Below, in pieces: positions 40,129 through 44,739 of a DNA stretch of 64,000 nt. The DNA is taken from positions 1,175,684-1,239,683 of the forward strand of contig NZ_KQ758903.1 in assembly GCF_001466665.1 (NCBI RefSeq), given 5' to 3'. The notes under the pieces were generated by a model. That model saw only the letters and a program-made list of their open reading frames with translations. It made no database searches and had not been told where the DNA came from. Source of the DNA: Dehalogenimonas alkenigignens. GTDB taxonomy: Bacteria > Chloroflexota > Dehalococcoidia > Dehalococcoidales > Dehalococcoidaceae. A program made the translations under genes and the position numbers. Each line of letters starts with the position of its first letter. Positions within the stretch are counted from its first letter, which is position 1.

Positions 40129-40180
40129 GCATTTTTTGGCCACTTTGAAGCCGTTGTGTTATGCTAATGACACCAGACCG

Positions 40181-40262
40181 CTAGGGGTGCGCAAAGCTGA
40201 GAGTCCTTCAGCTGAAGGACAACCCTGGCACCTGAACTCGATAATCCGAGCGTAGGGAAGGC
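40181..40262 (+). promoter_or_regulatory. TPP riboswitch (THI element)
   Basis: The leader has the two conserved halves: GGGGTGCGCAAAGCTGAGAG at 40184-40203 and ACCCTGGCACCTGAACTCGATAATCC-type sequence across about 40223-40250, ending in GCGTAGGGAAGGCGG. Between them GTCCTTCAGCTGAAGGAC is a perfect variable hairpin. The Shine-Dalgarno-like GGGAAGGCGG is part of the 3' strand, so control is probably translational; thiC starts 8 nt on. Confidence 0.95.
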
Positions 40263-40270
40263 GGTATAAT

Positions 40271-41572
40271 ATGACAACACAACTATCGTGCGCCCGGGAC
40301 GGCGTTATTACCCCTCAAATGGCGGCAGTCGCCGTCGCGGAAAATGTTACTGCTGAGCATATCAGGGAAAGCATCGCCTCCGGCGTTACGGTCATCCCGG
40401 CTAACAACGGGCATGCCAACCTGCAGCCGCGCGGGATCGGCCGGGGTCTGCGAACCAAAGTCAACGCCAACATCGGCACTTCCCCTGATTGCGCCGACGT
40501 TCAAATAGAGCTGGACAAGCTGGCCGCGGCGCTTCAGGCCGGCGCCGACGCTGTTATGGATCTTTCGACCGGCGGCGATTTGACCGCCATCCGCCGTGCC
40601 ATTCTTAACCGCTGCCCGGTTCCGCTGGGCACCGTGCCGATTTATGAAGCCGGTGTCCGAGCCCGGGCGGAGCACGGTTCAATCATCGAGTTGACCCCTG
40701 AGGGCCTGTTCGATGTCATCCGCGGCCATGCTGCGGAAGGCGTGGACTTCATTACCGTACACTGCGGCGTCACTTCAGGGGTGATTCAGAGGTTAAAATC
40801 CCAGGGCAGGGTGACCGATATCGTTTCGCGGGGCGGCGCATTGATGGCCGGTTGGATGGTCTATCATAACCGAGAAAACCCGCTGTATGAGCAATTCGAT
40901 CGTTTGCTTGAAATCGCTCTGGAGCATGACGTCACCATTTCTTTGGGCGACGGGCTGAGGCCTGGCTGCCTGGCCGACGCCACCGACCGCGCTCAGATTG
41001 AAGAACTGCTTGTTCTTGGTGAACTGGTCGATCGTGCCAGGCAGGCCGGCGTCCAGGTTATGGTTGAAGGTCCCGGTCACGTCCCGCTGAACCGCATTCA
41101 GGCTAATATGGAGCTGCAGAAGTCAGTGTGCCGCGGCGCCCCGTTTTATGTCCTCGGGCCGCTGGTGACCGACATCGCGCCGGGATATGATCACATTACC
41201 TCAGCCATCGGCGGCGCGCTGGCTGCGATGTATGGGGCCGACTTTTTATGCTATGTCACTCCGGCTGAGCACCTCTCGCTGCCGGAACCGGAAGACGTGC
41301 GACAGGGGGTTATCGCCTCTCGTATCGCCGCCCATGCCGCCGACATCGCTCGGGGTCTCCCCGGCGCCGCAGACTGGGATCTTAAGATGGCCCGGGCGCG
41401 CAAGAACCTCGACTGGGAATCCCAGGCTAATCTTTCGATTGATCCCGAGTTATCGCGCCGGCGGCACGCGGCTCGACAAACCTCCGGAGCCGCCTGCACC
41501 ATGTGCGGTGAATTTTGCGCCATGGAAATGGCGGAAAAATACCTCGGCATTCAGACCGCCCGATGCGAATAG
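40271..41572 (+). CDS. thiC: phosphomethylpyrimidine synthase ThiC
   Basis: Radical SAM enzyme of 433 residues that converts aminoimidazole ribotide to the HMP-P moiety of thiamine. The C-terminal cluster motif [10 protein letters not shown] supplies the three Cys of the 4Fe-4S cluster. Other family segments are [41 protein letters not shown] and [20 protein letters not shown]. It has the short bacterial form without the N-terminal extension of proteobacterial ThiC. Controlled by the TPP riboswitch. Confidence 0.97.
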
Positions 41573-41592: not shown

Positions 41593-42690
41593 TTGGATTC
41601 AGCTTTCAAAATTGGCAGATTCCTCGATATTGATTTTCGTATCCATTTCAGCTGGTTTCTCATTTTCATACTGATGGCTGTCTTCCTGGCCCGGGATGTG
41701 TTTCCAGGCGCTGTTCGCGGCGAGAGCACCCTCTCTTACTGGCTTATGGGAACCGGCACCGCTTTCCTGTTTTTCATGTCTGTTCTGGGTCACGAGTTAG
41801 GACATACTCTGGCCGCCAGGTCAGCCGGAATTCCCATCGGCGGCATAACCCTGTTTTTGTTCGGTGGAGCGGCCCAGATGAATCGAGAGCCGGCCTCGGC
41901 GGGCGCCGAACTGAAAATGGCCCTGTCCGGCCCCGGCGTCAGTCTGCTGCTGGCAGCTTTATTCTGGGCGGCTTATCAAATATGCCTTGGTTCCCTGAAT
42001 ACCCTTGCCGCCATGTCCCTGTGGCTTTCACAGATAAATTTGATCGTCGCCGGGTTCAACCTTCTGCCCGGATTTCCCCTTGACGGCGGACGGGTGCTTC
42101 GCGCCTTATGGTGGCGCTTAACCGGCGACCACCTCCGGGCAACCAGGGTATCTGTAGCCTGCGGTCGTATCACCGGCCTGGCGATAGCCGCTGCTGGTAT
42201 CTTCGTCCTCGTTCAAAACCGGGACTGGCTGGCTGGGGTCTGGCTTATCCTGATAGGCGCTTACCTTGAATACTCCGCCCGTCTCAGCCTGCGGCAGTTT
42301 AATCTCCAGCAGTGGATGAAGGGGCGGAAAGTCTCGGAAGTCATGGAAACCCGCTGCCGGGAAATACCGCCGGAGACTACGGTGAGTGAATTACTCGTTG
42401 ATCCCGGTATTGAACGCTGCCTGTTGGTTAAGCTCGGTGACCGGCAGGGTGTGGTGTTCGCGCCAACCCTTTCAGCTCATTCAGGCACAGCCGGCCTGGG
42501 CCGCATCGCCCTGCCGGTTGACGGCGCCCTTCAGATCTCACCCGGTGATGACCTCCTGGTGCTGGCGCAGCAAATGAACGAAACCGGGCGTGATTACGCA
42601 GTGGTTAAACAGGACGGCCAGACGGTCGGCTTCGTCTTTCTGGACGCACTGATCGACTTGGTAAACAGCTCAAGAGGCGGAAACACCTGA
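41593..42690 (+). CDS. site-2 protease family M50, degenerate CBS tail
   Basis: Membrane metalloprotease of 365 residues. The zinc site is His67-Glu-x-x-His71 in VLGHELGHTLAARS, with the third ligand in GFPLDGGRVLRALWW; about six hydrophobic segments surround it (1-220). The C-terminal ~120 residues (VSEVMETRCREIPPETTVSEL onward, cut here) have the spacing of a CBS pair but poor CBS sequence. The TTG start at 41593 follows thiC by 20 nt. It is a paralogue of the protease at 43627; the two flank a GreA-like gene. Confidence 0.9.
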   Translation: MDSAFKIGRFLDIDFRIHFSWFLIFILMAVFLARDVFPGAVRGESTLSYWLMGTGTAFLFFMSVLGHELGHTLAARSAGIPIGGITLFLFGGAAQMNREPASAGAELKMALSGPGVSLLLAALFWAAYQICLGSLNTLAAMSLWLSQINLIVAGFNLLPGFPLDGGRVLRALWWRLTGDHLRATRVSVACGRITGLAIAAAGIFVLVQNRDWLAGVWLILIGAYLEYSARLSLRQFNLQQWMKGRKVSEVMETRCREIPPETTVSELLVDPGIERCLLVKLGDRQGVVFAPTLSAHSGTAGLGRIALPVDGALQISPGDDLLVLAQQMNETGRDYAVVKQDGQTVGFVFLDALIDLVNSSRGGNT

Positions 42691-42741
42691 GCAACACTCT
42701 TTGCTCCATGCGCAGTGGCGGTATATACTTGGATTTGGCCA

Positions 42742-42771
42742 TTGAGCAAAGCATACTTTGCTTTCTAAAAT
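42742..42771 (+). promoter_or_regulatory. promoter with palindromic operator before the GreA-like gene
   Basis: TTGAGC (42742-42747), 18-nt spacer, TAAAAT (42766-42771). A perfect dyad AGCAAAG-CATA-CTTTGCT (42745-42762) overlaps the -35 box and spacer, where a repressor would block polymerase. Confidence 0.5.
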
Positions 42772-42793
42772 AACCAGCGCTCGAGAGGAACGA

Positions 42794-43600
42794 ATGACAG
42801 AAATCCAAAATGATCGTCCGGCTGATCTGACGGACGCCGCGGTTGCCTACCTCGGCTCCTTGTCTTCCGGAAAACGTGAGGCAGTGACGCCGGCGGTGAT
42901 GAACTTCGTCAGATGGTATGGGGCTCACCAGAGTATTGACAAAATTGCCCCGCCGAAGCTCGGCGAATACGCGGAAAGCCAGCCCTCAGGTGAAGACGGC
43001 GCCGCCAAGATTAAGGCTGTACGAGAAATGCTGGCTTATGCTGCCCGTCAAAATTGGATTTCATCGGAAATGTCCGGTCACCTGAAAGTCAGAAAAGTTG
43101 TCGCCAGGGTCAGGTCGGCCAATTCTCGCCCGGCTGTTGAGAAGCTGGTTCTTACAACTGAAAAACAGGCAGAGATGACGGCGGAGTTGACCGGGTTAAA
43201 AGAGCGCCGGGTACATGTCATTGATGATATTAAACGCGCCGCAGCGGACAAGGATCTGAAAGAGAACGCGCCCTACCACGCCGCCCGGGAAGAGAAAGCC
43301 CGCCTGGACGGCAAGATCAAAGAACTGGAAACTCTCCTTAAGCATGCCGTGATAGGTGAGCAGGAGTGTGCTGCCGGAACTGTGGCTGACCTTGGCCGTA
43401 AGGTCACTCTGAAGGAAACCGCGTCCGGTGCTCAAAGAACCTATCTACTGGTAACACCTCGTGAAGTAAACCCCAAGACCGGCCGGATCTCTCCGGTATC
43501 ACCCATCGGTAAAGCCATCATGGGGCGGTCGGCGGGTGAAATCGTCGAGGTTGTCGCACCGGCATGTACCGTGAAATATCTGATAGAGTGCATTGAATAA
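42794..43600 (+). CDS. GreA/GreB-type factor with extra N-terminal domain
   Basis: Protein of 268 residues. The C-terminal two-thirds is Gre-like: a coiled-coil hairpin (about 117-188, with DKDLKENAPYHAAREEK, matching the acidic tip and Asn-Ala-x-Tyr-x-x-A core of GreA) and a FKBP-like domain (about 190-266, with VTLKETASGAQRTYLLV and SPIGKAIMGRSAGEIVEV). Canonical GreA is about 158 residues. The extra ~105 N-terminal residues resemble the helical core-binding domain of tyrosine recombinases (AVAYLGSLSSGKREAVTPAV, cut; MLAYAARQNWISSEMSG). It should bind RNA polymerase and relieve backtracking; the added domain may bind DNA. ATG follows GAGAGGA. Confidence 0.83.
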   Translation: MTEIQNDRPADLTDAAVAYLGSLSSGKREAVTPAVMNFVRWYGAHQSIDKIAPPKLGEYAESQPSGEDGAAKIKAVREMLAYAARQNWISSEMSGHLKVRKVVARVRSANSRPAVEKLVLTTEKQAEMTAELTGLKERRVHVIDDIKRAAADKDLKENAPYHAAREEKARLDGKIKELETLLKHAVIGEQECAAGTVADLGRKVTLKETASGAQRTYLLVTPREVNPKTGRISPVSPIGKAIMGRSAGEIVEVVAPACTVKYLIECIE

Positions 43601-43626
43601 AGCAATTAGTCTCGATCGGAGGCGGC

Positions 43627-44739
43627 ATGAGGTCATCATTCAAGATCGGGCGCATTCTGGGTATCGAGATAGGTATTCATGTCTCGTGGCTCCTGATATT
43701 CGCCTTTTTGACCTGGTCGCTTGCCGCCAGCTACTTTCCTTCCATTCTCCCCGAAGAAAGCCCCGCGACTTACTGGTTGCTCGGGGCTGCCTCCAGCCTT
43801 TCGCTATTTGCCTCGGTCCTGGCTCACGAGTTGGGTCACTCGGTAGTCGCCCGGCGTAACGGCATACCGGTAAAAGATATCACCCTGTTTATTTTCGGCG
43901 GCGCGTCCAATATCAGCAAGGAAGCCGATACTCCCGGCGCCGAGTTCCGCATGGCGGTGACGGGGCCTCTGATCAGTTTCGCTTTGGCGGCCATATTCTA
44001 CTTTGCCTATTCCGCCGGCGGGCCGGTCGAGACCGCCTTGAGCGCTGTCACCCTTTATCTCGCCCAGATAAATTTGATTTTAGGCATTTTCAATTTACTT
44101 CCCGGATTTCCTCTCGACGGCGGCCGGGTATTCCGGTCGCTGGTCTGGAAGATAACCGGCAACGTCACCAAGGCGACTCGAATTGCGGCCTCAACCGGTC
44201 AGGTAATCGCTTATTTGTTTATCTTCGGCGGCATCGCCTTAGCCTTCAATGTCGGGATCAGCGGCTTGTGGCTGGCTTTAATCGGCTGGTTCTTAGCCTC
44301 CGCGGCTTCGGCAAGCTACCAGCAGTCTCTGCTCTCCGAGGTCCTTAAAGGGATTAAAGTGAGCCAGGTCGCCAGGCTGGATTTACACACCATTGCTCCG
44401 ACATTGACGGTTGAGTCCGCTTTGAATGAGATGCTGGAGAAGCGGCAGCGCGCCTTTCCGGTAGTTGAAGGCAGCCGCATGATCGGGCTTTTAAGTATGA
44501 CCGATATTAAACGCTCTCCGAGACACACCTGGTCGTCTGAGACTGTCAGCAGTATCCTTACGCCGATGAATGAAGTTAAGACCGTTTCCCCTGATGACGA
44601 CCTGGCGGCGGCTCTTGAGCTTATGCAAGGCGGAGGATTCAACCAGTTACCGGTTCTGGAGGGCGGCGCGCTGCGCGGGATGCTCTCCCGCGCTGACCTG
44701 CTGAACTATATTCAGATTAAGCAGGAACTCGGCCGTTAG
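43627..44739 (+). CDS. site-2 protease family M50 with CBS pair
   Basis: Membrane metalloprotease of 370 residues, closely related to the protein at 41593: both start SFKIGR and have the zinc motif at the same position (His67, Glu68, His71 in VLAHELGHSVVARRN). The third ligand is in GFPLDGGRVFRSLVW. Here the CBS pair is well formed (about 240-365, VSQVARLDLHTIAPTLTVES, cut; GGFNQLPVLEGGALRGMLSR), so adenosine-nucleotide sensing is likely. Rip3/SpoIVFB-type enzymes release membrane-bound regulators by cutting in the bilayer. The start ATG follows GGAGG. Confidence 0.93.
   Translation: MRSSFKIGRILGIEIGIHVSWLLIFAFLTWSLAASYFPSILPEESPATYWLLGAASSLSLFASVLAHELGHSVVARRNGIPVKDITLFIFGGASNISKEADTPGAEFRMAVTGPLISFALAAIFYFAYSAGGPVETALSAVTLYLAQINLILGIFNLLPGFPLDGGRVFRSLVWKITGNVTKATRIAASTGQVIAYLFIFGGIALAFNVGISGLWLALIGWFLASAASASYQQSLLSEVLKGIKVSQVARLDLHTIAPTLTVESALNEMLEKRQRAFPVVEGSRMIGLLSMTDIKRSPRHTWSSETVSSILTPMNEVKTVSPDDDLAAALELMQGGGFNQLPVLEGGALRGMLSRADLLNYIQIKQELGR

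Follow-up and report, generated by a model that had tools for sequence, protein, structure and literature searches.

The window analysed here, a stretch of 64,000 nucleotides of Dehalogenimonas alkenigignens (GCF_001466665.1, NZ_KQ758903.1, positions 1,175,684-1,239,683, forward strand), belongs to a genome assembled as a single contig of 1.85 Mb. The three open reading frames described by the initial annotation are all present: two M50 site-2 proteases and, between them, a gene for a GreA-like protein with an N-terminal domain of the recombinase core-binding (CB) type, hereafter named CB-GreA (Table 1).

Table 1. Features of the CB-GreA locus (positions within the window)
Feature	Position	Strand	Basis
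TPP riboswitch upstream of thiC	40173..40276	+	Rfam RF00059, 57.7 bits
thiC	40271-41572		directly 3' of the TPP riboswitch
First M50 protease with degenerate CBS, 365 aa, TTG start	41593..42690	+	ORF, Pfam, motifs
Promoter-like site TTGAGC-18-TAAAAT, in the 103-base gap before CB-GreA	42742..42771	+	consensus scan only
CB-GreA fusion gene	42794..43600	+	ORF, 268 aa from ATG; both GreA domains above Pfam cut-off
Recombinase core-binding (SAM-like) helical domain, residues 10-92	42821..43069	+	Pfam/PDB profile, AlphaFold, Foldseek
Basic linker, residues 93-118	43070..43147	+	matches recombinase interdomain linker
Gre coiled coil, residues 119-188	43148..43357	+	PF03449, E 5.7e-17
Acidic cleavage tip, D154 and E157	43253..43264	+	invariant in 71/71 orthologues
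Gre C-terminal FKBP-like domain, residues 197-267	43382..43594	+	PF01272, E 1.7e-18
Second M50 site-2 protease with CBS pair, 370 aa	43627..44739	+	Pfam, motifs

Regarding the GreA half, the Gre coiled coil and FKBP-like domain initially recognized in this protein are both confirmed by Pfam, with PF03449 at 62.1 bits (cut-off 24.5; residues 119-187) and PF01272 at 66.8 bits (cut-off 26.9; residues 197-267). In the AlphaFold model the coiled-coil helices occupy residues 122-150 and 159-183, and the best Foldseek matches for the C-terminal part are GreA and Thermus Gfh1. The DxxEN tip (D154, E157 and N158) is kept in 71/71 orthologues and, because of this invariance, the Gre half is predicted to be probably competent for transcript cleavage. 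An acidic tip alone is not proof of cleavage, since Gfh1, although Gre-like and equipped with acidic residues at its tip, can be without cleavage activity (PMC4598747). CB-GreA resembles GreA/GreB (PF03449 and PF01272; TIGR01462) in its complete coiled coil, FKBP-like domain and DxxEN tip, and differs from them by an N-terminal recombinase-type domain of about 105 residues with its linker and by scores under every NCBIfam GreA cut-off (124.3 bits against 139 for TIGR01462 and 122.9 against 145 for NF001263, for the window protein). As judged from its sequence, it is a divergent Gre subfamily and not a standard GreA.

The initial annotation had proposed that the first 105 or so residues resemble the SAM-like core-binding domain of tyrosine recombinases. 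Residues 1-105 of the window protein alone gave no credible Pfam match. From 80 retrieved loci, 71 fusions were extracted and their N-domains aligned for profile work: PF02899 (Phage_int_SAM_1) is matched by 17 of these 71 N-domains (best E 1.3e-5) and PF13495 likewise by 17 of 71, and in the PDB the N-domain profile finds its best sequence match in the integrase N-domain 3nrw (E 0.0033). AlphaFold, run on shallow input alignments (8 and 3 rows), returned for full CB-GreA a pLDDT of 78.9 and a pTM of 0.37, the relative placement of the domains being unpredicted because of their order and the flexibility of the linker, and for the isolated N-domain a pLDDT of 78.8 (mostly 80-93 across the domain) and a pTM of 0.71; in both models the N-domain has four helices. 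In Foldseek searches, the N-terminal part of the full model matches integrases, and the top 19 matches of the isolated N-domain are all tyrosine recombinases, integrases or XerD, with modest E-values (0.03 and up) and probabilities up to 1.00; TM-scores between the isolated domain and 3nrw are 0.71/0.73. Conversely, a profile built from the fusions only and searched against whole genomes retrieves more than the fusions: in Chloroflexota, Actinomycetota and Bacillota it also recovers intact tyrosine recombinases carrying HxLRH motifs. Among 198 Actinomycetota plus 199 Bacillota genomes, seven proteins score at E <= 1e-6: six carry the recombinase motif, one is a 259-residue frame lacking it, and the Gre motif occurs in none of them. 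The proposed resemblance is thus backed by real recombinases as well as by the HMM and structure predictions suggested for residues 1-110, with Pfam, PDB and Foldseek all recovering the recombinase CB fold.

The alignment between fusions and recombinases continues through the linker, which reads NLAxHLRxxK in the former and NPAxxIRxPK in the latter. With profiles, AlphaFold/Foldseek and reciprocal matches in agreement, the N-domain of CB-GreA is recognized as homologous to the CB domain and linker of tyrosine recombinases. It shares with the Xer-type enzymes (Phage_int_SAM) its fold, its helix order, the basic position of the A-L-R motif and the linker motif, and differs by the absence of the PF00589 catalytic domain and its R-H-R-Y active site, GreA coming after the linker instead. 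By its domain content CB-GreA is not a recombinase, and the simplest reading of the sequence is that a recombinase N-terminus with its linker was joined to GreA, which would replace the catalytic domain. Separate intact recombinases are still present in the D. alkenigignens genome. Besides several longer recombinases, this genome contains many short or split matches to the Phage_integrase family at whole-genome coordinates outside the window (G000:C1 116-454, 2845-3468, 166091-166717, 627615-628241 and 1748578-1749189), which have the look of a collection of small integrases or of a family of repeated elements.

Several features bear on what this domain could bind. N-domains are net positive in 71/71 orthologues (mean +4.8) and the linker segment (residues 93-118) has a mean net charge of +4.9 over the same 71 sequences, that of the coiled coil being -1.9; within the linker, pLDDT is low from residue 100. 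Residue 77, which lines up with the K/R of the recombinase A-L-R motif (12/12), is K/R in 71/71 orthologues, and residues 72, 84, 85, 98, 100 and 101 are K/R in 73-97% of them. In XerH, the corresponding domain puts helices into the DNA major groove (PMC5241119). The T-x-x-x-Y segment of the second recombinase helix is absent from the fusions, which have the consensus sQQEvnkF there; nucleic-acid binding by the N-domain would therefore be non-specific or altered rather than Xer-site recognition, and sequence-specific binding may have been lost. In GreA structures, the N-terminus of the coiled coil is located at its base, outside the channel, and an extra N-terminal domain would for this reason be positioned at the surface of the polymerase, attached by a flexible linker. 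From sequence and analogy, DNA tethering by the N-domain is hence plausible.

Recombinase CB domains also mediate protein contacts, and the N-domain could have ceased to bind DNA and become a protein-protein module, serving in partner recruitment, in dimerization or on a lineage-specific polymerase surface, in an otherwise ordinary GreA. The replacement of the T-x-x-x-Y segment would suit such a role, as would the strongly conserved W41, F38, G43 and H96, which could be structural or interface residues. Against it stand the uniform positive charge and the K/R residues that all 71 orthologues keep in the fourth helix and the linker, and we regard it as less likely than nucleic-acid binding.

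In a protein search of 148 Dehalococcoidia genomes, where a match starting before residue 45 was counted as a fusion, full-length fusions were found in at least 123. Profile searches show fusions in other Chloroflexota classes as well and found none in the approximately 400 Actinomycetota and Bacillota genomes, and full-length relatives in public records are from Dehalococcoidales and other Chloroflexota. A phage origin was considered and rejected: among the matches listed, phage records match the Gre part only, and their coverage of the query never reaches 80%. A tree of 43 fusion and 79 canonical Gre domains unites the fusions in one clade (97/92; recovered in 96% of bootstrap trees), outside which lies the canonical Gre from a genome that also bears a fusion (G019, locus L164); a single origin of the fusion followed by long retention is hence favoured. 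Deeply diverged CB-GreA of other Chloroflexota families (L222, L223, L231 and L241; N-domain E 1e-9 to 1e-17) take basal positions in the fusion clade. A Dehalococcoidales MAG (Tb.RUG.381, L003:7010-7483) encodes a GreA of canonical length without CB domain, preceded by the FAD-reductase-like gene that also lies upstream of the fusion in other Dehalococcoidales; this GreA groups weakly beside the fusion clade and is possibly a case of secondary loss of the N-domain.

Many fusion genomes retain a second Gre match. CB-GreA is the sole PF01272 gene of the D. alkenigignens genome, and each sampled Dehalococcoidaceae genome has one such gene, except G113 with two; CB-GreA is thus usually the only Gre factor in this family. 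Its single copy there and its neighbourhood of housekeeping genes would be expected of a housekeeping GreA bearing a neutral, decorative extra domain among chance neighbours. We consider this improbable, because since its single origin the extra domain has been kept full-length, with near-invariant positions, not only in at least 123 Dehalococcoidia genomes but also in other classes, which implies that it is under selection. Acetylation of D. mccartyi GreA at "K17" has been published (PMC7918482); the acetylated residue is not placeable in the CB-GreA domain, since residue 17 is not lysine in three sister-genus sequences (L088-L090) and numbering or start site differs from that report.

The two proteases that flank the gene both carry HELGH and N-L-L-P-G-F-P-L-D-G-G motifs and score over the PF02163 cut-off. 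CBS-containing site-2 proteases (M50) include the archaeal mjS2P type. Both window proteins resemble this group by their HExxH and xPxxPLDGG motifs, and the second also by a C-terminal CBS pair; the degenerate CBS of the first sets it apart, and otherwise nothing in them is unusual. The earlier observation of a good CBS pair in the second protease only is correct: its two CBS stretches give a Pfam E-value of 3.4e-21, against a single sub-threshold match in the first (E 0.0048; 17.7 bits for a cut-off of 24). The same annotation had interpreted the two proteases as a duplication. That they are homologues with common motifs stands, while a recent tandem duplication is not supported by a tree of 56 sequences, which places the second protease among proteases of other families and leaves the first outside that group (100/99), with the caveat that the first lies on a long branch.

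In 11/11 Dehalococcoidaceae genomes CB-GreA is followed by the adjacent CBS protease, at a spacing of 21-30 bases in the 8 loci measured, and in 9 of these 11 both proteases are near it. The first protease adjoins CB-GreA in 6/8 genomes of the window's genus, is missing near it in two others (G364 and G377) and lies about 2-3 kb away in three sister-genus genomes. The survey beyond the family covered 63 fusion loci, 34 of them flanked on each side by 5 kb or more; 33 of these 34 have no protease within 5 kb, the exception being G082, where one is next to Gre, and in many fusion genomes the proteases are on other contigs than the fusion. The neighbours elsewhere (GidB, citrate synthase, OTCase, arginase, AdoMet decarboxylase, FAD oxidoreductase, phosphoesterase) are unrelated metabolic genes, all local to sub-lineages, and another class-wide conserved partner was accordingly rejected. 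A defence system was also discarded, PADLOC giving no match. In the window, the first protease starts 20 bases after thiC, itself led by the TPP riboswitch; it is probably part of the thiC transcription unit rather than of the Gre unit, and may be under thiamine control. With an adjacency restricted to one family, the linkage to thiC, the changing neighbours and the protease tree, the proteases are best read as neighbours of CB-GreA in one family and probably not as part of the same system. The three genes, whose staying together across Dehalococcoidia was a check proposed by the initial annotation, do so at the family level only. The membrane-to-polymerase stress circuit which it built on them, with proteases releasing or regulating Gre and CBS domains sensing nucleotides, is very improbable despite the tight Gre-CBS protease pair of the family and the G082 locus, as the fusion is class-wide and the trio is not, the first protease probably belongs with thiC, and CB-GreA, with two soluble domains and no long hydrophobic segment in sequence or model, is no obvious protease substrate.

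We favour, with moderate confidence, the view that CB-GreA is a transcript-cleavage factor which a catalytically dead Xer-type recombinase domain keeps near DNA, and that this factor originated once, early in Chloroflexota, and does not need the proteases. In this mechanism, the Gre half would dock at the secondary channel of RNA polymerase, where the DxxEN tip would trigger cleavage of backtracked RNA, and the CB domain and linker would bind nucleic acid, with duplex DNA close to the polymerase as the likeliest target. Joined through the flexible basic linker, this N-terminal part would keep CB-GreA close to transcribed or stalled complexes. The fusion would have arisen as a paralogue beside ordinary GreA and have become the sole Gre factor in Dehalococcoidaceae, the adjacent site-2 proteases being dispensable. 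More tentatively, CB-GreA could represent an undescribed class of secondary-channel factors, in which Gre holds the polymerase and the dead recombinase domain holds chromosomal DNA, targeting cleavage or rescue to particular DNA regions or structures (e.g., in front of stalled polymerases or at Xer-like sites), and which would be the only Gre factor in organohalide-respiring Dehalococcoidaceae.

Gre modules joined to other domains have precedents. NCBIfam PRK06330 and PRK14720 combine GreA with unrelated N-terminal parts, with other partner domains and lengths, and CB-GreA scores far below their cut-offs. The EAD10-TPR-GreA/B-C-PIN conflict proteins (PMC8195603) likewise have other partner domains and lengths, and are further distinguished by the lack of a PADLOC match for CB-GreA. 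No published fusion of GreA to a recombinase domain was found in the open-access literature searched, within which CB-GreA is a previously undescribed form of Gre factor. Gre factors have been studied as two-domain proteins reaching the polymerase only. Fused once and deeply conserved, a recombinase domain that binds DNA would provide them with a second anchor and offer a straightforward way to test the targeting of transcript cleavage. CB-GreA would also be a case of an Xer-type domain re-used in transcription, and bacteria employed in the clean-up of chlorinated solvents usually have no other Gre factor.
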